Assembly: GCA_008360955.1 (NCBI GenBank)
Contig: LUCM01002370.1
Span: forward strand, 1 to 64,000
Reading direction: 5' to 3'
From: Fasciolopsis buskii
Lineage: Eukaryota > Platyhelminthes > Trematoda > Plagiorchiida > Fasciolidae
DNA length: 64,000 nucleotides
The translations under genes and the position numbers were made by a program. This document shows, piece after piece, positions 1 to 64,000 of this stretch (position 1 is its first letter; every line of letters starts with the position of its first letter). The notes below the pieces were generated by a model. That model worked only from the letters and a program-made list of their open reading frames with translations. It was not told the DNA's origin and ran no database searches.

Positions 1-590
1 GGTGGAGAGCACTGAGTAGTGCCGGTCGATCCACGGAGTCGAAGGGACCTTTCAAGTTGAGGAAGACTACGATCGTAGGGCGGCGGTGCGTGTGGCGCGT
101 TTTGAGTATTTGTCGAAGAGTGAATATCTGGTCGACGCAACTTCGACCCGGACGAAATCCGGCCTGTTGTTCACGGATACTACTCTCGCGAATCGGTGTC
201 AAACGGCGAAGCATTATCGAAGCTAACACCTTAGTAACTATCGGAATTAAACTAATCCCACGATGATTACTGCAGTCACTCCGCGTACCCTTCTTGGAGA
301 TGGGTACAATCAGTGACTCACCCCACGACAACGGAATACGCTCCTCGTTCCAAATATCACGAAGAAAAAAGGTAAGTGATTTCACCAGAGATTCCCCCAC
401 TTAATTCGAAAAGAACTGGGGGAAGGTCTTGGAGACCGGCCGCTCTTCCCCTCCTCAGAAGTCGAATATCCGACTCCCCTTCCAATTCCGTTGGGGTATC
501 AAGTGACACCTCCCAATGATTTGCAGATGCAGATGCCGGACCAAATTCGTTAGCATGTGGCCAGCTGGCCAATTTGCATTCGTTCCTGTG
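1..590 (-). mobile_element. RTE-type LINE reverse transcriptase remnant, cut by window edge
   Basis: Read on the minus strand, this gives the N-terminal half of an RTE-type RT. In order come a linker (LLRRGRAAGLQDLPPVLF, about 500-410), LSWGESLIVPISKKG (about 340-295), NHRGISLIPIVTKVLA (about 270-225), QQAGFRPGRSCVDQIFTLRQ (about 180-115) and RT motif A as VFLNLKGPFDSVD (about 70-30). A frame change near 357 breaks the reading frame: 572-357 is open, then another frame continues to base 1. In motif A the expected catalytic Asp is Asn (FLN rather than FLD), so the enzyme would be inactive even with the frame intact. Motifs B and C would lie left of the window. The endonuclease domain was not recognised upstream, so the copy may be 5'-truncated near 600. 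Clade assignment is from motif resemblance only. Confidence 0.82.
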
Positions 591-6079: not shown

Positions 6080-7755
6080 GCAGGAAGATTCGTCGAAAGC
6101 GCGCCACACTTCTCCCATTGATGCCATACCTGAGGCCTCGCTGCACCTCGGCTTCCATCCAACTCCTGCTTAAACGTAACCACGTTGCACCTCGTCGCCA
6201 AGTCACCAAGAGTTCATTTTCATATATTTGCTCTCCCGCTACTGAAGAAGTGCTGCCTGACTAACAGTCCATATCCTTTACTTTCATGCTCCTTTTAATG
6301 GCCTCGCGTTCGAGAGACTTCGTCTTGTTGAAAAAGCCGTATGGAATAAGAATCAGAAAGCCGGTTACAATCTTTGAGGTCTTCATCAAGTCCCCTCGGT
6401 GCCTCCTATCCAGTGAGAGGAGATAAGGCACTGGGTCATTAATCGTACGACATCCCGCCCCTTCCCTCGGCCATTCTGGCGGCCTATTCCTATGCCTGTT
6501 CAAAGCAGGCAGCGTTTATCTTGAAAAACGAAAACCAAGCCTGCATGCGATATTCTCGCAGACGCCGACTATGGACTTGCACAAAGGTATGAGCACTTCT
6601 GACTTCTGGCAGAACAAGGCCATGTCGGTCCAAATAATTCATCCCTGGTCTTGCGGCCTTCCGTGACAAGTTGTTCTGGCCATTTAAGGCCTGACTTAAC
6701 GATCATTTTCAGATCTTTCATCTTGCTAATGTCGTCTGCAGTTTAATGTACCCGGTCATGTGATACTGTAAGGCTTTCATTGCCGCAGAAAAATGAATTT
6801 TGCTTTCATTTGGGAGCAAGTCACATTTGTCAGTCCAATCTTAGACAGCCCCTATATCGCTGCTTAGGTCTAGTCTGCCCTTGACATATTTGGCGAAGAA
6901 AACTGGGTAATATTAGGGCGGGAGCTGGATCCTTCACACCGAGCAGAAATGACAGTGGTCCCAAAAAACCAGTCTTGTGGAAAGCCGCTCGTAACTTCGA
7001 GCTTGACGGAGCACCTGTCCCATAACATGAGGTAAAGTCTCCCTCTGTTATACCTGTCCCTGGGTAAAAAACGCTTCTAGCCTTATTAGGAATGGGCGAT
7101 GATTCACTGGGTCGAACGCCATGCTGAATTAAAGATGGACCGCGACATGTCTACCACTGCCAACTATTCGAGTGGCTCTATCCAAGAGACACAGGTTATT
7201 GGGACCAGACCTAACTTTATGAAGACGTGCTGGGATTGACATAACATTAAGTACTAAGGTAAGCGTTGGGGATAAGTGGCCAAATTAAGTTAACCACCAT
7301 AGAAAGCTAGTGAGGCTGACTGAAATGTGGTTTGCCATGAAATAGCAAGGGGTTCATTTATGTATATACCACCAATCCAGTCACCTCATATTTCGCCTTG
7401 TTCTATTCTGACCTGGGACAGCTTGCACACCGGGCCGGCGATGATACCGGCTGATGGCTTGACGATAGCCGGGTGAATATTACTTGACCCAGCAAACTTC
7501 TTTGCCTGACAGTTTTGGTTATCTGAATGTATCGTCCTCCGTTGTCAACGGTTATTCATTGGTTAGCTGCTGAGTATCTAATACAAGCTCCAGGGCCAGC
7601 GCTGACAAATATGGAACACTACCGAGGTTTTGGGCCAGTGCGCTTGCTTCGCTATGGCCATCTTTGATGTCCCGGCCTCCAGTCTGCAACGGATATTCGT
7701 CACCCCTAATTGAACTTTGATCGCATGTGGGTGTAGTCGCTTTTTTTATTCCCAC
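6080..7755 (-). mobile_element. decayed LINE, RT plus C-terminal region (jockey/CR1-like)
   Basis: Minus-strand translation recovers an almost complete RT region broken by stops and frame changes. A linker (SEASALAQNLGSV, about 7655-7615) is followed by IHPAIVKP (about 7470), GPVCKLSQVRIEQGEI (about 7435-7395), motif A as MAFDPVNHR (about 7120-7095), motif B as SGFPQD (about 6988-6972), a lost motif C (AKYVKG where ADDVK is expected, about 6890) and DWTDKCDLLPNESKIHF (about 6840-6790). Then come DISKMKDLKMIVKSGLKW (about 6735-6680), LDRRHRGDLMKTSKIVTG (about 6410-6355) and VVTFKQELDGSRGAA (about 6183-6140). The order is that of one element, so it is a single old insertion. It sits immediately upstream of PAF1 in the same orientation. 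Clade assignment is tentative. Confidence 0.8.
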
Positions 7756-8089
7756 CTAGCTTATTGCGCCAGTTTCAGTATACACTTGGTATTTTTACTT
7801 CTATAAGCTTCACCTAGCTGTTTATACTTTTTGCGCGCGGGATCCCATTTAGCTGGTTTTGAGCAATTTTCAATACCACCACCACCACTGATTTCGCTGC
7901 CTACTGGCCCTTTTGATGGCTTCCCTCCTACAGTGTGCTTTTGCTTTGCGATTTCTGCGGCTTACGTGTGCAAGTCTATTCTGCAGGGTTAGTCGAGATA
8001 AACTGTTTGTCCTTCATCATTTCTCCACCTATTCCCATCGGCCGCGTTTTAGGTTAACTCGGCTTCTGTGGCTTGGAACTCGCTCAACG
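7756..8089. other. spacer between two LINE remnants
   Basis: T-rich sequence with a short ACC run (7876-7889) and no recognisable domain. It may hold the 3' end of the LINE at 8090-8885 and the 5' part of the one at 6080-7755, but neither boundary is visible. Confidence 0.4.
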
Positions 8090-8885
8090 GACACTGCCTA
8101 GACGGCAGAAATTCGGGCCTTAAATTTGTGACTCCCGGCATGGTACGCAATGGACTATTTCTGACTTGGTCATTTTGTGTCCGGCAAATGACGTTTACCA
8201 AGACTTAGTGATAGATTTCACCGTTGCGATTGTTATTTGACTGCCCCTAAATCCTGGAATGCGCAGTCCCTCTTACTAATCTGATATCATCCGTACAGAA
8301 GAGGAATGGGTCAGACAGCTCCTGCGCCAAGCCGTTTATCAAAAAAATAGGAAAGAAAGAATCCAAGAACAGTCCTGAGGAACTCCGCCTGCCACATCTG
8401 ATGTAGACCCTTGGTTACCCACCCTAACTTTGAAACCAAGGTTACTGAGAAACTGCCTCACCCACCGCTTAGGTGGTTGTTATGCCGAAAGCTGGCATTT
8501 ATGGTATAGCTAAAGGGACTTAGGAAATTGAAAGCCTTCTAACACCTAGTTAACCGATCTCAATTGCCTTGACTTCACCCTTGTTGGTGTTTCACTGGCA
8601 AAAGACAATAGCTTCGTTAAGCACTACCTGTTTTTGGCAAATCTGCTTTGTGTCGAGGTCAAAAACCTGTTCGTCACAAGATGTGATTATAACTGATCGA
8701 TTATTATTTGTTCTAAGGACTTGCATAACACTGACGCCATGTTTACAGACCTACGGTCGTTGGCCTTATGGCTAGAAGCTGCCTGTAGCAGTTTCCCAAT
8801 CCGCGTGCATAGAACAAAAGTCTGGCAACCAGCCGCTGGATCTTCCAGACTGGTCTGTTTTCGGCTGGCACCTTTAACTCCCAAC
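8090..8885 (-). mobile_element. decayed LINE reverse transcriptase fragment
   Basis: Minus-strand RT motifs occur in order: NDRRSVNMASVLCKSLEQII (about 8765-8705, equivalent of NYRPVSLTS), STQSRFAKNR (about 8660-8628, equivalent of QHGF), a degraded motif A (LEGFQFPKSL near 8530), FLSNLGFKVRVGNQ (about 8455-8412), motif B as GGVPQD (about 8392-8373) and motif C as FLFCTDDIRLVRG (about 8305-8260). CTDD replaces the usual FADD but keeps both Asp residues. Several in-frame stops and one frame change after motif B rule out activity. It belongs to a different RT lineage from the copy at 6080-7755, judged by motif wording. Confidence 0.78.
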
Positions 8886-9383: not shown

Positions 9384-9812
9384 TAATAATAATAATGTAT
9401 ATTTCTCGATTTGCGAGATGCAGGCGCAAGACAGGATCAAGTTTTACAAAGGTGATGCACAGGAAATACGAACAATATCAATCGAAGGGAGAGAGGGTGA
9501 GAGCGACCTTGAGTAATTTGAAAGGTTTGTTTGATTTTGCATTTTTCTCGAAATACGAGAGACATGCGCAAGGTAAGATCAAAATTGGGCAAAGAAGGCA
9601 AAGTGCAGACACGGAAAACGGAAACCAAATGTGCAATGCACTGTGGTTTCGCTCACAAGATCATAACAGGCAATGTGATTTCCAGAGCACGGGGTTTTAA
9701 ATCAAAGCTAGATAATGTTTCGCGAATATTTTTCTGTGGCTGATAACCAGTCTTGTACTGCGAGTAATATTATGTTTGAATGCATCAAAGTCGCGTATCG
9801 CAGGCGCAAACT
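9384..9812 (+). repeat. anonymous repeat family 1, copy 1
   Basis: About 430 bp, matched in reverse complement by 30028-30440. The core (about 9445-9715) is nearly identical by eye. It starts with a short AAT run and the string TTTCTCGATTTGCGAG. An internal partial direct repeat is visible: the stretch from 9400 (TTTCTCGATTTGCGAGA) and that from about 9542 (TTTCTCGAAATACGAGA) share about 50 diverged bases. A 22-bp insertion near 9416-9440 distinguishes this copy from the second one. Both copies have open frames of about 110 codons, but conservation covers all frames and flanks, so recent copying explains them better than coding. No transposase or RT is recognised; it may be a SINE-like or non-autonomous element. 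Confidence 0.85.
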
Positions 9813-11039
9813 ATTTTGCGTCATAATGGAAGCCTGATCGCAGTACTACGCTGGTCACCCAACCACATAAGTTCTTTATTAATACCTAGGACACAATTTT
9901 GATACATCACTGCTAAACAATCCGACAGTTGGTTTAAGGCCAATTCAATTCAACTCCCTATCCTGTGTCATAAACCTTGACTTTTGCCTTGCTTGTTTTA
10001 CTTCCTGACCTAATGTTTCATTCACACGACCAACCCTAAGTCGGGTGATGCCTCTATTTTTTTACTGTTCATTACTCTCTATATCTCCAAGCAGGCACCC
10101 AAGCCGGATTATTTTACTCTATTATGTTTCAGCTCCCGCACCCAGGCTATGCGGGCTATTACCAGCTCCGCCCCTGTAAGGGGAACTCCGAATCTACTGG
10201 ATTCTCGCTCCTGCTTGGACGCTGTTAGCCGGATCTGGCACTGGTGTACTGGTCCAATCAACCCAAACCAGGTGGCTGATTCCGCTGGATAGTATAACCC
10301 AGGCGGATCTTTATGACCGGTCAGAAAAGTTACTACTGCTGCCGGAATGCCCTGTGTTCTCCTCCAAAGTCCCCAAACGTACTGCCGTCTAGGATAACAA
10401 GTTGCGACAATAAGAATGACAGCACGGATAATACCTTTGATTGATGCATTTTAAACTTTTGAACTACAGCATAAACGTTTTTTCTCCATCGCATTCAGCA
10501 ATCTTGAGAGTTACATATTCCGTCCGTGAAAAACGTTTCATAAAATCCCGTTTTGCAAATAGTTCGGTGGTCTTGACAGTATTCTTTCGCCTTCCTCAAC
10601 ATTTCATCGGCCCTATTTTGTTGTTGTACGCGATATCTTATTCACTTTTCATAGCGTTCTCCCTGATTTGGACTAACCACCATCCAATTGTCATATTCCG
10701 ATTGACCCTCATCTTTTAAGTAAACGGTTCTTTCCATCACTTGACGGTCTTAACGTTTGCGGCCTCCGGACATATTTCGACATCCTCCATTGATCTTCTG
10801 TCTAGCGTTGCGCCAGCGACAAGCCCAGTTATTGCACTTAAATACGAAATGACTTACAGTCGGTTGCCCATGAGCAGTTCCAATATCCCGGTATAATCTT
10901 GCAAAACAGTATATTCGATTTTGGCTTTTGTCTGACATACTTGAGCACTGCTTATTGCTTTGCAGATTCTGATCGTTCTTTCCGAATAATCCAAAGTAGC
11001 ACATATCCCAGTATACCTTCTGGTTTTTATTATTCTCGT
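9813..11039. other. no gene recognised; pyrimidine-rich
   Basis: Strongly C+T-rich on the plus strand, especially 10000-11000. A hydrophobic 92-codon open frame at 10441-10719 follows from the T-richness and is not supported as a gene. Confidence 0.4.
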
Positions 11040-29945: not shown

Positions 29946-30027
29946 TTAATACTCATCTCTACCATATAACTCCTGGTTATGGATTATCCCGGCCAACGGG
30001 CGGCGAGAGCCAATGCCCTCCAGCCAT

Positions 30028-30440
30028 ATTTTGCGCCCGCGATACGCACCTCTGATGCATTCAAACCTAGTATTACTCGCAGCACAGGACTGGTAATCAG
30101 CCACAGAAAATTCTTTGTGAACCATTATCTAACTTCGATTTAAAACCCCGTGCTCGGGAAATCACATTGCCTGTTATGATCTTGTGAGCGAAATCACAGT
30201 GCATTGCACATTTGGTTTCCGTTTTCCGTGTCTGCACTTTGCCTTCTTTGCCCAATTTTGATCTTACCTTGCGCATGTCTCTCGTATTTCGAGAAAAATG
30301 CAAAATCAAACAAACCTTTCAAATTACTCAAGGTCGCTCTCACCCTCTCTCCCTTCGATTGATATTGTTTGTATTTCCTGTGCACCATCTCTGTATAACT
30401 TGGTTCGTAAATCGAGAAATGTACATTATTATTGTTATTA
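30028..30440 (-). repeat. anonymous repeat family 1, copy 2
   Basis: Reverse-complement partner of 9384-9812. The core is nearly identical, with scattered substitutions such as at 30163-30165 (CTC here, CAG-derived in copy 1) and 30195. It lacks the 22-bp insertion of copy 1. Right of 30440 the sequence no longer matches. High similarity over the whole length, including non-coding flanks, suggests recent dispersal. Confidence 0.85.
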
Positions 30441-45099: not shown

Positions 45100-47075
45100 T
45101 AGTTTGTACTGTATTGTATCGTATTGCATAGAATTTTGTGTACAAAAATATGTCGTATTTCATTCAAAAACTGCGAGTTTAGCAAATAAATTAAGGGGAA
45201 AAAGCAATTAATAAATGAAATAATAAAAAGGTCACACTCATCGCATCGTAAAGTACTCATCCAGGAATAATCATATCGCATGAGGACAGACTACTGGGGA
45301 ATTCGCCTGAAACCCGGTCATGGTTTGTCAATTTTCGTGCTAAATATTTGACCATGGAAATCCTATAGATATTGATTCTGGAGGGTATGGAACAAAAATC
45401 GGATCGTGTCGGAATATGAGAGCGACACTTTGAAATATCAATGTGCAGAGGATGCGTGAGGCCAGAAAGATTTTTGTGAACAACTTTCTCAAATGCTGAT
45501 AAGCGTTGATCGCACAGATTAAGAGACAATCCAGTTAGTGGTATGAAGGACTCACGGCTAATAATTGATAACCCCCGGCAAAGAATTTTAGTCTTTTCTA
45601 AATAAACCTGGAAAAATAACAGGAGAATAGTAAAGAAGGACTGGACAAACACATTGTTATACACATCCGGGAGATGGTGCAATGTTCTACATTGTAGTGT
45701 CGAAGCTTCCTGATTTGAAATGTCAACCGTTTGAGACTTTACACAGGTGGAACTGTGAGTAGTTCACATCAGATTCTTTTGATAGTAACCCCTAGATATT
45801 TCACAGAATCAGCCAGGGTAAGTGGTTTTGAGTTGGTGGAAGAAGTTTCCGATGGGTAGGCCGAACGAGGGGGAGGGAACAGACATTCAAATCATTTAGA
45901 TTTGTTGAGATTTAAACCAGCTCGTGCAGAGAAATCGTAAACGGAAATTAGGTTGTTAGAAAAACTTTGAAAACCATCGTTGTTCAAAATGACTTGAGAG
46001 AGGGCAGAATCACCAGCATACTTAAACAGATGACAAGGGGAGCTAGTAGATAAGTCACCGTAGAGAAATGTTGAAAGAACAGCACCCCGAAGCACTACTG
46101 AGTTGCTGATCAACGGTTTCGAAAATTTGCCGTCCATTCGTGTGCACCAGGTTCGGTTAGTAAAGTAATCAGACAGCCATGCTAATAAAGAACTGGGACA
46201 ACCAAATGTTTGCAGTTTGTGGAGTAGAAGAGACCGTGGGACAGAATCAAATGCCGACGAATAGTCTAGAAAGACGCAACGCACAGATTTCATCAACGCA
46301 TTTAAGGGCTTGCAAATGTAGTGATTGAGGGAGGCGACAGCGTCCAAAGTGGACTTGTTAGATTTATAGGTAAACTGAAAAGGGTCGCCAGGAGGATACG
46401 TAGAAGGACGCAGGCGCTTAAGTAGTGCACGCTCCATTAGTTTAAGACCAGAAGACGTTAAGACGACGGGGGCGAAAATGTTTTGCCAAAGCAGTAGAGC
46501 TGTTAGATTTAGGGATGGGAATAATAGTGACGGGTATCCAACAGTCAGAGACAGGAAAGGAGGTTAATGACGAGTTAGTTAGAGAATTTAATGCACCGAT
46601 CAGAGCCACAGCACCATGCTTTAAAAGAGGTGAGGACAGAATGTCAGGACCAAACGCTGTGGTAATTTTAGTGGCGCAGAGAAAGTCAAGCACCTCGTCT
46701 CTAGAAAAACTTGTAACTGTCTTATCATCACCTGGCCAAATATGACCGGGGTATAGTTGGAACGATGAATGAAAGCCTGATTGATACTGTCTACATCAGC
46801 AAGAGTTTTCGCATGCTTCTCCTTCTTCCCACACAATATTCGAATGCCTTGCCATAGGAATCTATTGTTATTACCACTCAAAAGTTGGCTGGCGAACGTC
46901 ATGTCGATGCGTCGTATTTCAGCTTTTATTAGGTTGGAAATGTACCGCACACTTCAGTTATTACGAGAAGTGTTCCTTACATCGTCTTAGAGATTTCAGT
47001 TTCTGGGTGGAGATACGGCCGTTTGAGACGAATAGTGTTTCTGAGGGGCACCCCTTTCACTGGAGTTACGTAAGG
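45100..47075 (-). mobile_element. CR1/jockey-like LINE remnant, RT through 3' tail
   Basis: This is the best preserved LINE here. On the minus strand a pre-RT part (46950-46740, RFLWQGIRILCGKKEKH) is followed, after a frame change near 46725, by GPDILSSPLLKHGA and WIPVTIIPIPKSN. Another change at a C-run near 46468-46472 leads into the main open frame 46437-45892. That frame holds FQFTYKSNKSTLDAV, motif A VFLDYSSAFDSVPRSLL, motif B region SNSVVLRGAVLSTFLY, motif C as FKYAGDSALSQ (YAGD where YADD is expected, so one catalytic Asp is lost) and GLNLNKSK. After a TGA the same frame continues to VKYLGVTI (about 45800), and a shift near 45680 leads into the C-terminal segment 45682-45257 (THPLHIDISKCRSHIPTRSD). 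The 3' end is marked by short CAATA/GATAC-like tandem bases near 45105-45135. Confidence 0.85.
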
Positions 47076-52900: not shown

Positions 52901-53484
52901 CCCTTTCCTCACTGCAAAGCCACCATTCTGATTGCTAGACTTTGGAACTTCTCTATGGATTCTCTATCCTTGCAGCAATAGTGGACGTAGGACTGCAGAC
53001 GGTGTCGTAGAAGAGGATGCAACATTACCTTGAACTATAGCCCGAACACCAATCTAGCATGTAGCCCTGGTGCATTGCTTGATGAAACTCCATGTTGAGG
53101 GCCATTTGGCATTATCTGAAGATTGAAAGTTGCACATAACCACAAACTTTAAGCACTTGACCTCTGATGCACAATGGAGTGGTGTACTGGTAATTCACTC
53201 TGTAGCCTTATTCAGCAAAAGACCATCGTGGAGATTCAGCCGTGGGTTCCGTCGATCTGACTATCGCTGTACTATATCTAAATCTTGAAATATGTGGTTT
53301 TGCCGTTCTTTTGACATAATTACCTAAGGTGAAACAAGGGTTTGTCAGTTCAATGCCATAGTGTTAATACAAAAGAAGAACATAGCAGGTCAAAGCACAT
53401 AGGCTTGTGCTTCTGCTTTCTGTCTAATGCCATCTACATTCATCTTCGGCTTTCAGACGACATAATTCGGACGCTATGTTCCTC
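49986..53484. other. no gene recognised
   Basis: A minus-strand frame at 50303-50587 contains RRDKIKDTAWSEIALVLKIS, which recalls the first helix of a MADF-type DNA-binding domain, but the rest does not follow. A 138-codon plus frame (52239-52655) has no recognisable domain. A GT-rich run at about 50048-50060 is short. Confidence 0.35.
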
Positions 53485-53938
53485 AGTAGTTCTTCCGCAA
53501 TCCAGCTGAATACCAACGGATTATCATTGTGTATTGGTTCGATTTTGGCCAACTTTGGCGTGAATAGGAAGCTCCATGTTTCACTTCACCATAAAGGTCG
53601 GGCTTTGCGGGGGTTCCAGAAACCCCGTTGATATTTATGAACAAAAGACCATTTACCGGTCGTTGAGCAATCGGCAAGATAGGGCAACACAATAAACGGC
53701 CAAATTACATACATAATCAATGAAAATTAAGTAAGGCTATAGGCTCCTCAGGTGTAGAACCCGTCGGGACAACGCGGCCGTAATAAGTCTATTCAGGGTG
53801 GCTCGCATTTCGAAGGAGTGATTACACTTCCCCGAAGTCGAACGGGTAGTATACTCATCAAATTGGGTACAATTAGCTTATGGAAATTTACACCTCAATG
53901 ATAAAAATATTCCCGCTTGGTTTGTTCGATCGCTTGAT
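53485..53938 (+). repeat. block A, first copy
   Basis: 454 bp, duplicated at 55489-55942 with no difference seen by eye. On its left it joins unique sequence and on its right it joins block B directly. No gene is recognised in it; a 69-codon minus frame (53483-53692) has no known domain. Confidence 0.95.
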
Positions 53939-55487
53939 AATTTTCAAGGAGTTTTGTTAACCTCAAGGCCTCCTAACGCAGTGTTTTCTCATGTGGGTGT
54001 AGATCAGCGCTGTGGTAGCTTAAGATGTATATATGCGTTAAAAACCCGTGGTCATGCAGATGAGCAAAGGATGCGTGTAATATCAGGCGGTGAAGCTGAA
54101 CAAACCGTTATGAGCCTGCCGGCAGCGTAATGGTTAGACCATTCGACTCAAAATCATTCAGATCTGACCGGCATTCCAGTTTGAGTGCGATAGATATGCA
54201 CTGCTCATGATTCCCAACAAAGATGAAACAACTGTTCTTGCTTCAATGGTTTCGCAATAATGAGTTGGGCTTTGACCTTATGAGATTTATATTTTCGCGA
54301 TGTCTATGAATATAACAAACAAACCGATTGATGAGAGGAAGAGGGTCTCGCTCTCTTTAATTACGCTTTATCGTGTTTTGCAGAATAAAACTGCAAGTAC
54401 TAACGGTAGTGTATTTTGGGCCGTTTGAACTGCAGTGTTATGCTGCATTTCTTTTTACAAGGAGACGCTGCAAAGCACAAATAAACTGCAAGGGATGCAG
54501 TGGGGTTTAGTGCTCACTTGGTCGAAAGGCATCAACTCATACAAGAGGGTCATTTTACCAAAACAGAGAATTGACTATATGCGAGAAATCTGACTGTCGT
54601 TCGTGTCTATCTCATTTCAAGTTTGAGTTCATAATCCATCACACTGAAATGAGGAACGTATAGGTGAAACCGTGAAACCGAATTTATATTTAAGACAGAA
54701 CTAAAACTGGCTTAGTTCGCATGTGGCACATTTCATCCGGCAATTAGTTTTATGACAAATCAACAACGCGTCCAACTAGGGTGGGATTTGAAATAGGGAC
54801 AGGCTCGTCACAAAGCACTGAGAAGGTAAGACCGTCGTCGCTGAGATCAATTATCATATCAGACACATTAACTAATACAAATAAATTCTAATGTCTCACT
54901 CTCAAAATTTTTCAAACCCGTGATAATTTTCGAGATTAGACCAGAAATGAGCATTTTGGTTTTGTAAAAGTCATCATTTGCCGTTTACACTACGCATTAG
55001 TTCGCTTGCTGTTTGGGAATTGTGGCCTCTTAGCAGCCTTGGAGGGATAAAAGATTAAAGATTTCATTTCTATTTAGAAGTTCCTACTAATTACGATGGG
55101 GGGGGGGGAAGCTCGTCTGCACGAGGTGTTTCGCTCGAAATCCAGGGGGCACGGACATCCCGAGCGATTATTTCAAGTTACCCGAACCGCTTTGAGTATC
55201 CCCTTTGAAGCAAGCAGAGGAACGTTGGAGGTGATACCGGTAACTTGTTTTACATTAGCAATTAACAATTTACAAAGAGCTAGACTATTTTTAGCGCGAG
55301 AATATCAAAATGTAGATATATAGATTCAGCTCACGAGTAGAAGCTGTACTCCCTGGTTGTCTGGCATTAAAATGACTTTGCTGTAGAGAATGAAAAGGGT
55401 TAACCGACGTGGACGTTAGAGGTGCTTCGACCCTATTTTTAGAACGGAAAAGAGACAAGATCGAGATGATGGTTTGTGTCTTGGTGT
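53938..55487 (+). repeat. block B, first copy
   Basis: About 1550 bp, duplicated at 60824-62371. The copies differ in a poly-G run (11 G at 55098-55108 against 9 G at 61984-61992) and at an ambiguous base (G at 54970, N at 61856). It contains the tRNA-like hairpin at 54117-54173. No confident gene. Confidence 0.95.
54117..54173 (+). ncRNA. tRNA-like hairpin sequence (degenerate, possible SINE head)
   Basis: TGCCGG at the start pairs perfectly with CCGGCA at the end. Inside, AATGG-TTAGA-CCATT forms a five-bp D-arm-like hairpin within AGCGTAATGGTTAGACC, close to a tRNA A box. Next comes GACTCAAAATC, an anticodon-loop-like element (CTCAAAA). No good B box or T arm follows. Best read as a decayed tRNA or tRNA-derived element head. 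Its second occurrence (61003-61059) is the duplicate of block B. Confidence 0.3.
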
Positions 55488-55488
55488 N
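55488..55488. other. single N at a duplicate-block junction
   Basis: The only base between block B (ending 55487) and the second copy of block A (starting 55489). Its exact placement at the junction marks an assembly join. Confidence 0.97.
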
Positions 55489-55942
55489 AGTAGTTCTTCC
55501 GCAATCCAGCTGAATACCAACGGATTATCATTGTGTATTGGTTCGATTTTGGCCAACTTTGGCGTGAATAGGAAGCTCCATGTTTCACTTCACCATAAAG
55601 GTCGGGCTTTGCGGGGGTTCCAGAAACCCCGTTGATATTTATGAACAAAAGACCATTTACCGGTCGTTGAGCAATCGGCAAGATAGGGCAACACAATAAA
55701 CGGCCAAATTACATACATAATCAATGAAAATTAAGTAAGGCTATAGGCTCCTCAGGTGTAGAACCCGTCGGGACAACGCGGCCGTAATAAGTCTATTCAG
55801 GGTGGCTCGCATTTCGAAGGAGTGATTACACTTCCCCGAAGTCGAACGGGTAGTATACTCATCAAATTGGGTACAATTAGCTTATGGAAATTTACACCTC
55901 AATGATAAAAATATTCCCGCTTGGTTTGTTCGATCGCTTGAT
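55489..55942 (+). repeat. block A, second copy
   Basis: Copy of 53485-53938 at constant offset 2004. Here it continues into segment C instead of block B; the sequences part after the shared T at 53938/55942. Confidence 0.95.
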
Positions 55943-58900
55943 TGGGACCTGCATTGCCTTACTGAAAGGTACACAAAGATTTCGTCCAAGTATAATTGTG
56001 ACCAGTGAAACTGATGATAAGATGTCTGAATGCATACGAATATTTCACATAATTTTCGAGGTCTACTTCTCGGCAATCACGATAGATAAAGCTAGAAAGT
56101 GACCAAATATCGGCAGTTTCCTTTGTATTTATTTAGCTCAAGTATGTTTGGATGACTTGCTCGTACTCATTAGCTATGCGGTTCAAAATACTTTCTTAGA
56201 AAGTTAAATCTCGAAGATGTTCATTCTAAAGTAGCGCTATTCGGAAGTGAAGTCTGACCGCTAATCATGGACAATCACGCGTATTGTTAGTTGCCGGCTT
56301 TCAGATGGTGTTCGTAGGCAAAGACTCAAAGATATCACAATCCACGGCTTCAGTCAGCTAGTGCCGAGAATTGTGCACAAAACAAATGGCAAACAGATTT
56401 ACGAAAATTTCAGAGAAATTGCTATGCAAACTGTCTTGGTGATGAGTAAGATGTTAACATTATACGATGAAACGAAAGTCATCAACAGCAAATCGCCCCG
56501 AGACCTAGAGGCACTATATTTATTTTTGTGGTGAGGATTCAAACCGTACAATGCCCTACAAAAATGAATACCAGTGATAGTTATGATTCACTTCATAGAG
56601 GTTAAAATATGGGTTACTCAGTTTTGCTATGAATATCAACACCGTTTTCCCCTTCTGAGCACTGGGGCGCAATAAAACATGCGAGTATAGACGTGATTCT
56701 TATTGGAATCGGAGCTTATATCACCGGCTTGGCCAGATGAAAAAAATGAAATTTTCAAATACCACGGTTTTTCACACCTGAGTTATGATTGCGGGTAAAC
56801 GCTGGCTGCCGGAAGTAGCGAAACCCACCCAGCGTCCGGAGTGCAGAGTAGCCCGTAATCGGGATGGTTACTTTGAAATTTTCCATGACATTCATTAGAT
56901 TAGGTAGAACCGACGTCAGTGTACAGGGTTCATTCAAAAACAAAATTAGATCAAAGACCTTGTTTCTGGTTTGTTCCAGTAAAGTCCCCGAGAGGGTCAC
57001 ATAACCCAGAAGGTTCGCGCTCTGGCCCAGAAAGAATCGCAACAGTGATTTCATAAGCAGTCCAAGGATGTTTCAAGAAGGATTATCTATCATATTTTTC
57101 TGTCATTGTTTTATCCTGGTGTTTTTGACATATCGCATTTAACCCATCTTATATTTGGGCGGATAAAGACGTCAAATAACTCTCACAGGAAGTTGATTTT
57201 AACGGGTTTAAACAATTCAAAAATATCGACCAAGGTGAGTACGGTTTGAGTAACTCCCTCAAATATATGAAAAGAATTGCATCAGAGTAGCAAATATTAA
57301 AAGCGCCCGATATGCATGCAAAGAATGAGCAACCATCTCTACGCAATCAAAATGGACTGTTTAGTTCAGAAACTCATAATAGTGACATCCCTGACAACTG
57401 CTTGAAAACTTATTATGGACGTTTTCAGGAACCAGTGAGCACTAATATACATTATTTTATCAAGTTTGTAATAGTAGTAAGAGGAACTAGCAAGCGGCAG
57501 TAAAATGCATCTAATTTTATCTAAAAACATGATCAATGGGATAATAACGTTATCTCCTGGAAGATTATTGGATATGTAATACATTAAATAGAGCATGAAC
57601 AATTAGGTCAATCCCGTTCACTTTTTCTGTCTGCTCTTCAGGTAAAAACTATTTTGTGGTGCAGCCTTTCACTTTTCGCTTCGGGAAAAACAGTGCGTAT
57701 TTTCTTACTCAAAACAGCGCTATAAGAGCAGTAAACTCATCAGTGACAGGAACATTAGCGACAGAACCCACGTTACAACCGCAACAGTCTCCGAAGAGTA
57801 AAAGAGCGCTGCGTCCACCAGAATGAAACTGCCAAGTTACAAGATTAATGCAGTTAAATTCGATGAATACGTTTATGTTATTACAATGCGAGTAACTGGG
57901 TGCGTCCATGTCAGTAGACGTCAGTGTAAGCAGATTTAGTACTGCGAAATAAACCTACATCGCTACATGCGATTATACTGACCAGCTTTGATAAGTCCCG
58001 ACAGTTCGCCTTTTTAGGCGATAACCGAAACGAACTATTCATGTTCAAATCATTTGGGACACCATTGTAAACAGCAGTTCTCCGGCGCAAATACCTTAAG
58101 ACATTCTCCGTGTCTTGTATTACCTAAAGTAAAACACAAAAATGTGTGGTTCCCACTGATTTCCAGCTTCTGAACAACTTCGGAATATTGTAATCAGCTC
58201 AAATTGGCGATCTTCTGGTGAGTATGTTAGTGCATTTACTAAATGTACGTATGTCGAAATACGCCTATCCTACAGGTTGGACCAAGAGTCAACAACGATA
58301 AGGTAAAAATTAAAAGGAAAAACAGGTGTTTCACATGGAAATATGATTGGTTCGCTGGTGTAAAAGTTGTATGGAACATATTTTGTCTACTATGAAGTCT
58401 AGGTTATTGGAGATTAGCGTTTTAAACAGTGGACTTTCCTCTTTCTAAGAAAAGGCTTTTGTAAATTTTTGGTCAAATAACACCAGTTTAGTTTGTCAAT
58501 GTTTTGTGAGGATCGGAGGTGTGCTTACAGTGTTCAGGATATCCATATTAAAGTGGCGTATGTTGCCTGAGTCGATTATCCTTTTTCACTGTTCATGGCG
58601 GAATCCAACCAAGTTATTTCAGTTGTTCACGAAAAAACGCGGACGACAGTTCTTTTAGTAGTTGGTTAGGACCGTCCCAAGTATTTTTAATTTATACTGA
58701 GCTGAAATCTAGGTTAGTTGCATTGTGGATTTTACTCGGCAGCAGCAGTTTTTAATATTTCCGATGGGTTATCGTTAGTTACTTCTTCGCAAGTTCTGCC
58801 GCAATGTGTTAATCACAAGCAATACTTTTAAATGTATCTTGGTAAGCTTTGTCCTCTAAAGCTGAAATATTTACTTCCAGTGACTTTCCTGGTTGATCAA

Positions 58901-60063
58901 GTATATTGGCAGAAACTTCAGGACTTCCTTTTTCTCAAATAAACTGAATATCATTAGGAATCAACAAAAGAAATCATCAAATAAGCGTAGAGAACTGTTT
59001 GTCAGGTTTTAAAGATTTTGAACTAATCCAAATGGGAAAATTTTGACCTTTTTGAGGTCTGAACCCACGCATGGACGATATCCACGCACCGGTATCATGT
59101 GTTTTAATGCGCATGCTGCGATTCGAAGCCACAATGTTCGCGCTTTTTCTTACGGATCATTAGTTGTCAGTCCAATATAAGCAGGCATATTACATCCGTT
59201 GTTTGACAGACAGAACTAAACAATATTAAAAATCAACCATTAGTTTCCAGCTAGAGAACAAATGTTTGGTTTGGATGCCTGCAACATTCGTCAACTTCAA
59301 TGCATCTGAAGTGAGTTGAATCAATTCGCAATTCATACACGACCGTGATTGCAAACCACTGTGTCCTGGTTGGAGTACGACGGGGCTCTGTCCCGGCAGC
59401 CAAAGTGAAAGGACTTGAATGTAGGGAACATTTTGTACATGTTTTTCGGGCTAGTAACTAATCGTCCGAAACTAAAACATTCAGACATTATCCAGTGTGA
59501 AGTGGCAGTTGAGATTATAGAGAACACGTAATAGTGAAGTGTGAGTAGATTTCACTCATGCGTACAAAACTCACGGAGAAGAGTGATTTGGAAAGTGAAG
59601 AAATTCAACAACTTCTGAATGACTCCCTTCTTTTCAAAGTGAATTTCAAGGCGAAAGTTTAGTTTTTCAGACCGGGACAACTGGGCTCAGTTATGCGACT
59701 TGAATTGTAAGTTTCTATGCAACCTCAAATCCACTGGCAAAATCAGTCTGATTGGATCTAATACGAATTCCGGTTACCCTAGTAAGCTGTTACCGTGACT
59801 GATTTCTGAATGCCTGTCTCTAAGTCTGTGCATTCTATTGGATTTTTCTCAATCTGAACGTGTTGACTGAAAGGACTGTGCTGGGCTTCGGAAATCAGAT
59901 TTTTATTCCTGTTTGCCCGGTAAATGGCCTTCATCTCCAAGTGAATTTGGAAATTCGTGCTAGTCATTGCTCAGACTGAGGAAGTTTTGTTAGGTCATGA
60001 TCACTGGTCTTGGGTTTTAGCTGTTCTGGCATGAGACTCCCGAAAAATCTTCAAATCAATTTT

Positions 60064-60109
60064 AACACAAGTTGGCGAACAAGCTCGTTTTCAGTGATTC
60101 GTACTCATG
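60064..60109 (+). repeat. inverted repeat, left arm (46 bp)
   Basis: Perfect reverse complement of 60759-60804. It encloses the GIY-YIG coding fragment and ends in ACTCATG. Confidence 0.97.
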
Positions 60110-60206
60110 TCATTACATCACTATATATATATTGGCAAAATATTTTCACTATAGGAAGGATTGGATTAGTCATTTACAAATATGGGTGGGGAAGGGATTT
60201 GTGGTG

Positions 60207-60761
60207 TCAATTGTTTTGTTGTCTAGGGTTAGTATTGGGACGGACGGTGGGCCAAGGGAGTTGAAGCGCAACCACAAATTGTTTTTGAGAATAAAGTGGA
60301 GGATTGTGAAGACGGATTGCGACAGCTTCCGCAGTGCTCAAGAGGCGACACTTTGCCAACCTGGACTGTGGACCTCTGACCTTATACAGGGTCCGGAAAG
60401 CTTGCGTTACATTCACGGTGTGGTTAGTCTGCGCTAGATGTGAAACCACTGCGCTATTAAGTGACTTAATTGTTCCAGTGCCTAACCATGCCGGGTGGTG
60501 CTCACGGATGCGTTGAGACAAGCGCCTGGTCGTGCGGCCGATGTACACTGTCCCACAGGAACATGTGAATGAATAGATACAAAGCGAGGCTGCAGAATCA
60601 GGGACTTTGTCTTTCAACCATAATGACACTACGGGGCGGGATTTGAATAGGATACGAAGCTTGGCTGCGTAGAACGTCTTATTGATAGCACTAGTCAGTC
60701 TTCGTCGTGCTATTTCAGCTAGCGTGTCACCTTTGAATGGCAGAGATATGTATACCGGCAT
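60207..60761 (-). CDS. Penelope-like element ORF fragment with GIY-YIG endonuclease domain
   Basis: 184 codons corresponding to the C-terminal part of a Penelope-like retroelement polyprotein: the linker after the RT thumb and the GIY-YIG endonuclease that nicks target DNA for reverse transcription. Residues 1-50 carry the linker (VYISLPFKGDT, then a segment ending in FYAAKLRILFKSRPV). The GIY-YIG core is CIYSFTCSCGTVYIGRTTRR (61-80), with YIG at 73-75, basic residues R79, R80 and R84, then REHHP (86-90), a conserved His near 108 and the late Glu in TAEAVAIRLHN (143-153). The closely spaced CSC is usual for this group. The frame is open throughout, so this part is well preserved, but the RT domain that should precede it is missing: the right arm of the inverted repeat and the end of segment C lie immediately upstream. 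A 5'-truncated, non-autonomous copy is the best reading. Confidence 0.88.
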   Translation of the reverse strand: MPVYISLPFKGDTLAEIARRRLTSAINKTFYAAKLRILFKSRPVVSLWLKDKVPDSAASLCIYSFTCSCGTVYIGRTTRRLSQRIREHHPAWLGTGTIKSLNSAVVSHLAQTNHTVNVTQAFRTLYKVRGPQSRLAKCRLLSTAEAVAIRLHNPPLYSQKQFVVALQLPWPTVRPNTNPRQQNN

Positions 60762-60804
60762 GAGTACGAATCACTGAAAACGAGCTTGTTCGCCAACTTG
60801 TGTT
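60759..60804 (-). repeat. inverted repeat, right arm (46 bp)
   Basis: Perfect reverse complement of 60064-60109. It overlaps the first codon of the GIY-YIG frame and ends 19 bp before the C/B' boundary. Upstream of the ATG an in-frame TGA within the arm shows that the polyprotein frame is interrupted here. Confidence 0.97.
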
Positions 60805-60823
60805 TTCTCAATGTGCTCAGTGG

Positions 60824-62371
60824 TAATTTTCAAGGAGTTTTGTTAACCTCAAGGCCTCCTAACGCAGTGTTTTCTCATGTGGGTGTAGATCAGCGCTGTG
60901 GTAGCTTAAGATGTATATATGCGTTAAAAACCCGTGGTCATGCAGATGAGCAAAGGATGCGTGTAATATCAGGCGGTGAAGCTGAACAAACCGTTATGAG
61001 CCTGCCGGCAGCGTAATGGTTAGACCATTCGACTCAAAATCATTCAGATCTGACCGGCATTCCAGTTTGAGTGCGATAGATATGCACTGCTCATGATTCC
61101 CAACAAAGATGAAACAACTGTTCTTGCTTCAATGGTTTCGCAATAATGAGTTGGGCTTTGACCTTATGAGATTTATATTTTCGCGATGTCTATGAATATA
61201 ACAAACAAACCGATTGATGAGAGGAAGAGGGTCTCGCTCTCTTTAATTACGCTTTATCGTGTTTTGCAGAATAAAACTGCAAGTACTAACGGTAGTGTAT
61301 TTTGGGCCGTTTGAACTGCAGTGTTATGCTGCATTTCTTTTTACAAGGAGACGCTGCAAAGCACAAATAAACTGCAAGGGATGCAGTGGGGTTTAGTGCT
61401 CACTTGGTCGAAAGGCATCAACTCATACAAGAGGGTCATTTTACCAAAACAGAGAATTGACTATATGCGAGAAATCTGACTGTCGTTCGTGTCTATCTCA
61501 TTTCAAGTTTGAGTTCATAATCCATCACACTGAAATGAGGAACGTATAGGTGAAACCGTGAAACCGAATTTATATTTAAGACAGAACTAAAACTGGCTTA
61601 GTTCGCATGTGGCACATTTCATCCGGCAATTAGTTTTATGACAAATCAACAACGCGTCCAACTAGGGTGGGATTTGAAATAGGGACAGGCTCGTCACAAA
61701 GCACTGAGAAGGTAAGACCGTCGTCGCTGAGATCAATTATCATATCAGACACATTAACTAATACAAATAAATTCTAATGTCTCACTCTCAAAATTTTTCA
61801 AACCCGTGATAATTTTCGAGATTAGACCAGAAATGAGCATTTTGGTTTTGTAAAANTCATCATTTGCCGTTTACACTACGCATTAGTTCGCTTGCTGTTT
61901 GGGAATTGTGGCCTCTTAGCAGCCTTGGAGGGATAAAAGATTAAAGATTTCATTTCTATTTAGAAGTTCCTACTAATTACGATGGGGGGGGGAAGCTCGT
62001 CTGCACGAGGTGTTTCGCTCGAAATCCAGGGGGCACGGACATCCCGAGCGATTATTTCAAGTTACCCGAACCGCTTTGAGTATCCCCTTTGAAGCAAGCA
62101 GAGGAACGTTGGAGGTGATACCGGTAACTTGTTTTACATTAGCAATTAACAATTTACAAAGAGCTAGACTATTTTTAGCGCGAGAATATCAAAATGTAGA
62201 TATATAGATTCAGCTCACGAGTAGAAGCTGTACTCCCTGGTTGTCTGGCATTAAAATGACTTTGCTGTAGAGAATGAAAAGGGTTAACCGACGTGGACGT
62301 TAGAGGTGCTTCGACCCTATTTTTAGAACGGAAAAGAGACAAGATCGAGATGATGGTTTGTGTCTTGGTGT
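60824..62371 (+). repeat. block B, second copy
   Basis: Copy of 53938-55487 (offset 6886, then 6884 after the poly-G run). It continues on the right into unique sequence, whereas the first copy stops at the N. Confidence 0.95.
61003..61059 (+). ncRNA. tRNA-like hairpin sequence, duplicate of 54117-54173
   Basis: Identical to the hairpin in the first block B, with the same outer stem TGCCGG/CCGGCA and inner stem AATGG/CCATT. If the block duplication is an assembly artefact there is only one such locus. Confidence 0.3.
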
Positions 62372-64000
62372 CTGGTAAGGCGAGAGCAAATCTCCCAAAA
62401 TCATCCACTGAAATTCAATTCGTTTTCCACATTTTCAGTTGCCGGAAAAAAGAACGAGAAGCGAAATATCAGTAGTAAAAGAACTAATAAAGTAGGATCG
62501 GATGAGACAAATAATCAAAAATTAGTGACAAAATGTGACTTACTCATAGAGTAGGATGGAACAACATTGTGACTAATCTTTATCTAATGATTCGGAGTTG
62601 CATGCTGATAAAAGATATCCAATTCACCATTACGCCAATAATATTCCTATCAAAGCTAATCAAGCATTTACTTATGCTTAGTAGCCATTCACAAAATGTA
62701 AGCCACTTATAAATTTCTGAACTTCTATAGAACTTTGTCCCTCATAACACACCAAACTGGTTTTTTGACACTTCACCCGTTTTGTTTGAAGGGGTTTGTT
62801 CCGCCAACTCAGTAGTCTTACTACTGCTTTTATGTTTCCCGGTTTTGCTTCAAGTGACCTGAAATCCGAAATATGCAGCTGCGAATTAGAGACTTAATAA
62901 GAAGGCAAGCTGAGAAAAGGATTTCTAGCATCTGACGCTTACTGGACTACGGTAGTCCGCTCAGTCAGCTTCATTTCTGTATCCGATCCAATTTTTATTG
63001 GATTCCCGCAGGCTGTCATCCTCTAGCTACTTTCATTTTACACTTTAAAACAGAAAAAAGCGGATTATTTTAACATGGACTGAAGGACAATATTTATTTT
63101 CGTGTGATTAACGTCATGCGGTTGAACCTTGGTTACGAAACGGCATTGCATAACAGGATGAAATAAAAATACCACGACGAAAAATAGCTCCGTTACTTGT
63201 GTTATCAAGTTATTCGAGAATAAATGTAAGAAAATAATAGTTTCTTTAAATAATTAAACTGTCTGTGTGCAGCGTTTGTGTTTGAGTCGTGATGGGGAAT
63301 TCAGCCACTAACAGTGGCCTACGGATAGGGATTAGCAGTACGCAATGTGCGATCCCAGCTATTGGAATGAAGTCACTGAGAAGCCCATATTAGCTGTGAA
63401 ATACGTTGTCCTATTTACAAATCAAGCGTTTGTATACGAAATAAGAAAAATCCAGATCAGTGAGATGGCATTCGAGCTATATTTGAACTTTACGACCGCT
63501 GGTTGTCTACACAGGCTGTAGCAGAGCTGTCCAGGATTGCGTCACGTGACGTGAACATACGTTCAGAACAGTATGTCACCGTTCTTCTAGTAACAATGTC
63601 ATGCATCTAAATTATTAGAAATCGATCGTTAAACTGTAATTCCACTTCGTAATTTCGTCACCAACGTAAACCATTTTTGTAATCTTATGAAACAAGTCAT
63701 ATTTTCTGTGTATAAAATTAGTCTGAAACGCAAATATTTAACCATAATTTTTATCTCATCGTACCGGTAATTGATCTTGCAATGTACGATCACATTTGCC
63801 AAGGTGCCATGTTCCCATTACACAGCCAGCGGGAAACCAGTGACTTATTTAGCCTGATGCAACTGACATGGCTTTGACGGTGGATTTATGTTAAGTGTTT
63901 CTAATCATCAACAATTCAAATTGCTGACAATACATTGTGATGAGCCAGCAGAATACCTATGTACCGTCTGACCACTGTCAAACTATTAGCCTACCGACTT
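62372..64000. other. no confident gene; possible terminal exon near 62293-62554
   Basis: A possible 64-bp intron (62375-62438, GTAAGG...TTTCAG) would join the frame starting at 62293 to one ending at a stop at 62554, giving a basic C-terminus (AGKKNEKRNISSKRTN...). The product is not recognised. The remainder to 64000 is AT-rich without recognisable features. Confidence 0.3.

Follow-up and report, generated by a model that had tools for sequence, protein, structure and literature searches.

The first 64,000 bases of a 456,439-bp Fasciolopsis buskii contig (C1426; these bases are referred to here as the window) appear to contain two alleles of one locus placed one after the other, which differ by a 4,882-bp deletion, a reading to which we give a probability of roughly 0.87. 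Two blocks, A and B, occur twice around a single N and a segment C, in the order A-B-N-A'-C-B' (Table 1), which an earlier note had taken for two concatenated haplotypes. Concatenation is strongly favoured, because the borders of the duplicate coincide with the N, no other full-length A or B is among the genome matches listed, and the same architecture recurs at a single N on a second contig (C3000). The arrangement is most likely an artefact of an already known kind around an ordinary deletion; what is new here is the direction of the indel.

Table 1. Features of the duplicated locus in window coordinates; allele labels follow the preferred reading.
Feature	Position	Strand	Basis
Block A, joined directly to B (short allele)	53485..53938	+	454/454 identical to 55489-55942
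Block B, short-allele copy, ends at N	53939..55487	+	1546/1549 columns identical to 60825-62371
Stub of about 12 bp of Penelope-like tail in short allele	53939..53950	+	identical to 60825-60836; 16-20 of 20 ends agree
Dispersed repeat of about 220 bp in B, tRNA-SINE-like look	54045..54270	+	at least 53 own-genome matches, 70-80%
Single N at presumed contig join	55488	.	sequence
Block A', long-allele copy	55489..55942	+	454/454 identical to A
Segment C, long allele only, 4882 bp	55943..60824	+	sequence comparison
Penelope-like element, 5'-truncated, extending some 12 bp into B'	60064..60836	-	own-genome element ends
Inverted repeat of 46 bp, left arm (pLTR part)	60064..60109	.	46/46
ORF of 187 aa, C-terminal GIY-YIG endonuclease part of element	60207..60770	-	65 homologues, best E 6.6e-74
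Inverted repeat of 46 bp, right arm (inverted pLTR)	60759..60804	.	46/46
Optional pLTR tail, spanning the C/B' border (60824/60825)	60814..60836	-	terminal matches in other copies
Block B', long-allele copy	60825..62371	+	1546/1549 columns identical to B
Second copy of dispersed repeat, in B'	about 60931-61156	+	inside B'
Second single N, opposite G in B	61856	.	sequence comparison

The earlier note described A and B as each present twice with almost no differences, and this is borne out: the copies agree at 454 of 454 bases in A and in 1546 of 1549 columns in B. The three differing columns are the N at 61856, opposite a G, and two columns in a G homopolymer, by which B (1549 bp) is longer than B' (1547 bp). 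Likeness by chance is excluded by the length and identity of the copies, and sequence comparison found no leftward extension of the similarity between A and A'. Across about 2 kb there are no base substitutions between A and A' or between B and B', one site being an N, so that SNP proof of two haplotypes is missing at the window. Also as the earlier note had it, one N (55488) separates the final base of B from the opening base of A', with nothing else between them. The window contains two single Ns, and the other, at 61856, is away from any duplicate border.

Further copies were sought in the organism's own assembly (703,196,239 bases in 6,974 contigs) using 53300-55487 as the query, with scoring of the best 40 among 2597 first-look candidates. 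Three of the 56 matches listed are near-identical, each of them on C1426, and no further full-length copy of A or B is among the 56; the absence of such copies elsewhere depends on the ranking of those 2597 candidates. A dispersed repeat inside B accounts for 53 of the 56 listed matches (70–80% identity). Six of its copies were aligned, and by eye this repeat looks tRNA-SINE-like. Rfam returned no RNA family in 53400-62500 at E up to 1, and ARAGORN (bacterial code) returned no tRNA gene in the 64,000-base window.

The frequency of single Ns was taken from a census set comprising the window and loci L002–L019 and L023–L031 (290,579 bases in total, including four long N runs of 18,812 bases together; 271,764 non-N bases). 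It holds three single Ns, namely the two in the window and position 7525 of C3000, and at three per 290,579 bases the probability that an N would fall on one given base by coincidence, with no artefact involved, is about 1e-5. The N on C3000 is the sole single N in the census set outside C1426, and the order A-B-N-A'-C-B' is found there too; the order thus recurs at 1 of 1 independent single Ns that could be examined. On C3000, the first 102 right-side bases are identical (102/102) to left-side positions 6539-6640 (A), and left-side positions 6648-7521 (B) reappear on the right, from 7610 to 8472, in two pieces, with the right-side copy carrying an extra 7,507 bp ahead of B'; the left-side B stops 3 bp short of the N. 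The C3000 case is messier than that in the window: seven bases separate A from B in the short copy. The first, clean piece of B differs from B' at 11 of 561 positions and is followed by about 30 bp without a counterpart in the right copy; the second piece has 27 gap openings and one mismatch in 307 columns, most of the surplus bases lying in the right copy. This piece has the look of long-read sequence that was not corrected, which suggests that long-read filling was probably used.

Under the concatenation model, the left contig (flank-A-B) would represent the short allele and the right contig (A'-C-B'-flank) the long allele. Because C sits within the overlap, the contig ends would not have been mergeable as a plain end overlap, and a scaffolding or gap-filling step may then have left one N between them. 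According to PMC5368935, ALLPATHS-LG assigns a negative gap size to contigs that overlap, and SOAPdenovo2 has a tendency to place gaps inside overlapping contigs. PMC9516828 describes false (heterotype) duplication in draft assemblies, and the window resembles the cases set out there in that presumed allelic copies are adjacent on one scaffold with a gap, here the N at 55488, between the duplicated pair. It differs from those cases in that the gap is a single N and in that what distinguishes the copies is an indel of 4.9 kb, not SNPs; the differences in the window are structural, with no SNP in the 454 bases of A and with B differing by an N and a 2-G homopolymer. Since two contigs of one locus would have been concatenated, the 2-kb duplication is probably false, and the locus in its long form would be about 2,004 bp shorter than the assembly shows; the earlier note had put the real locus at about 2 kb less sequence, given the allele model.

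The short A-B copy might instead be an assembly error, arising from a chimeric or mis-joined read path, so that no deletion allele exists. We regard this as improbable: the stretch on C3000 that resembles uncorrected long-read sequence (27 gap openings and one mismatch in 307 columns) speaks for such an error, but in the window B is clean over 1,549 bp save for the homopolymer and the N in its partner, and the single base shared at the A/B junction is too little for a repeat-driven misjoin. Somewhat harder still to credit is a real 6.9-kb tandem duplication of A-C-B whose first copy later lost C, the N having come to lie at the junction by chance. The order A-B-A'-C-B' is by itself also compatible with such a duplication, and the near-identity of the copies could reflect its being very recent; however, it requires two events and, besides, an N that happens to fall on the one junction base (about 1e-5), and it does not account for the same pattern on C3000.

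Within the preferred reading of two concatenated alleles, the indel of 4.88 kb that the earlier note proposed corresponds to C, the 4882 bp from 55943 to 60824. The first 2 kb of C (55944-57944) has one match in its own genome, which is itself, and against the census loci the repetitive part of C is confined to 60064-60824. This part belongs to a 5'-truncated Penelope-like element. A GIY-YIG domain was found in its 187-aa ORF, although the Pfam score is weak (E 0.0057; 17.4 bits, under the curated cut-off of 22.6). One of the 65 homologues of the ORF is named a GIY-YIG endonuclease by its source, and in an alignment with seven homologues the core is conserved. The best match is 67% identical, and homologues from Paragonimus westermani and Fasciola hepatica reach 63% and 54%, respectively. 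A further homologue carries the label Streptococcus dysgalactiae (65% over 81% of the query); this is taken for contamination or mislabelling. No solved structure resembling the ORF was returned at E up to 1. The reading frame of this copy begins at 60770, as a result of the 5' truncation, and includes no reverse transcriptase part.

The family is large, with 3,771 first-look candidates in the own genome, of which the best 40 were scored. Among the terminal matches listed for other copies, 23 reach query positions 801-815, 19 end at 781-784, and one ends at 772; the presence of both tail-bearing and tail-less ends indicates that the tail, about 23 bp long, is optional. Sections of PMC3846280 and PMC11167929 that deal with Penelope-like elements attribute to them a GIY-YIG endonuclease, often inverted pLTRs, and an optional tail (31 bp in Adineta; PMC3846280), together with a short target-site duplication that is frequent but not constant; Adineta copies lacking the duplication are also described (PMC3846280). 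The window copy is like the elements in those sections in having inverted pLTRs (arms identical at 46 of 46 positions) and an optional tail, and unlike them in being 5'-truncated, with a frame that has no reverse transcriptase part. By eye, no target-site duplication was seen at 60063/60064 and 60836/60837.

The optional tail crosses the border between C and B', and it is this that polarises the indel. To place the end of the element, 20 of the 23 listed tail-bearing ends were read, which were picked because their matches extend that far, so that counts from these ends locate the end of the element and do not give the frequency of the tail. The part of the tail ahead of the C/B' border is present in all 20. 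After the T shared by the junctions, per-base agreement with the window is 20, 20, 20, 20, 19, 20, 20, 20, 19, 18, 19 and 16 of 20 over the first 12 bases, and in the columns after these it is 2, 12, 10, 4, 5, 5, 4, 8, 6, 8, 3 and 7; the exact 10-mer after the T is present in 16 of 20 ends and the exact 12-mer in 13 of 20. The element thus ends at about 60836, 12 bp inside B', with an uncertainty of about 3 bp because most of the other copies share a few more bases among themselves (12 and 10 of the 20 ends still match the window at columns 14 and 15, respectively). The same 12 bp stand at the start of B in the short allele, and in 271,764 non-N census bases, on both strands, this 12-mer occurs at these two places only. 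Beyond it, the outer flank is the same in the short and the long copy, whereas the flanks of the other ends differ. A site that had never been occupied would need an accidental match to the last 12 bp of the element; hence the short allele would be a deletion derivative and not an empty site.

Most likely, a 4,882-bp deletion turned a long allele into the short one, and the deletion polymorphism is probably real and of an ordinary kind. The ancestral long allele would have carried DNA of which at least the first 2 kb is single-copy, together with the 5'-truncated Penelope-like element, and deletion of 55943 to 60824 would have removed C and with it the element, save for some 12 bp at its end. 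The right breakpoint thus most likely lies inside the tail of the element. The earlier note described a simple breakpoint with one shared T and without a target-site duplication, and indeed one T is all that is common at the A/B junction (53938 = 55942 = 60824); the breakpoints may have been joined at this base by ordinary end joining. A simple deletion with 1-bp microhomology is a product of end joining, and the window matches such a deletion in its clean breakpoints, its one shared T, and its freedom from filler, differing in that the right breakpoint falls about 12 bp inside the end of a retroelement, which allows the polarisation. Given zero substitutions in about 2 kb here versus 11 of 561 positions on C3000, probably either the deletion is recent or diversity in this region is low.

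The preference for deletion of C over a standard transposon insertion in the earlier note is hereby strengthened, and the choice between deletion and insertion now leans strongly to deletion, as the Penelope-like tail crosses the C/B' border. Least probable of all is that the alleles are concatenated but that C was inserted into the short allele by an element-mediated event carrying 4.1 kb of other DNA: C does bear an element at one end, and PMC3846280 reports, for Adineta, host DNA picked up along with Penelope pLTRs as well as one Penelope junction that formed by microhomology without a target-site duplication, but roughly the terminal 12 bp of the element, followed by an unchanged outer flank, are already present in the short allele, the left end of C has no match to the element end (self-comparison of the window), the last 60 bp of A compare with the element end at the level of shuffles (366 of 1000 score as high), and the own-genome matches listed for the first 2 kb of C include no second copy. 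A transposon insertion of C was rejected, in view of the tail stub in the short allele and of a search of both ends of C for terminal repeats or a target-site duplication that found one T only (self-comparison at E 1e-4, shorter repeats by eye). Recombination between two element ends was likewise rejected on the shuffle result for the last 60 bp of A.

For this assembly, the findings mean that single-N joins can mark unmerged alleles and that tandem duplicates beside such joins are not to be counted as gene or segment gains. The end of a truncated retroelement can polarise an indel from a single assembly. It is unlikely, but conceivable, that the deletion was the work of the Penelope-like element: its endonuclease, or breakage at the inverted repeats, would have cut about 12 bp inside the outer end, and resection would have removed the 4.9 kb; if true, Penelope-like elements would make segregating deletions at their own ends.

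The window holds a second single N, at position 61856 within B' (the right-hand copy of block B), where B has G at the matching position; this N coincides with no border of the duplicates. The dispersed repeat of ~220 bp carried by both B and B' (see table) had at least 53 matches at 70-80% identity in a search of the whole Fasciolopsis buskii assembly, in which the best 40 of 2597 candidates were scored. Judged by eye, the repeat includes box motifs resembling tRNA; ARAGORN returned no tRNA match for it, and Rfam no RNA family match.

Repeats and reverse transcriptase fragments of the window
Feature	Position	Strand	Basis
377-bp repeat, inverted pair	9438-9814; 30026-30402		93.6% identity between the two
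Reverse transcriptase fragment	2-400	-	Pfam RVT_1, E 5.9e-14
Reverse transcriptase fragment	45892-46563	-	Pfam RVT_1, E 4.2e-16
Dispersed repeat, ~220 bp	54045-54270; ~60931-61156		own-genome search

Among the own-genome matches listed, Penelope-like matches occur as oppositely oriented pairs on contigs C4376, C5801, C1355, C3857, and C5116, with a spacing of ~120 to 1,280 bases within pairs.

On contig C3000 of the same assembly, L016:6539-7525 together with the locus L017 represents a second candidate for a false duplication. A single N is present at this locus, the right copy has an additional segment of 7.5 kb, and part of the locus contains what look like insertion errors of long-read type.
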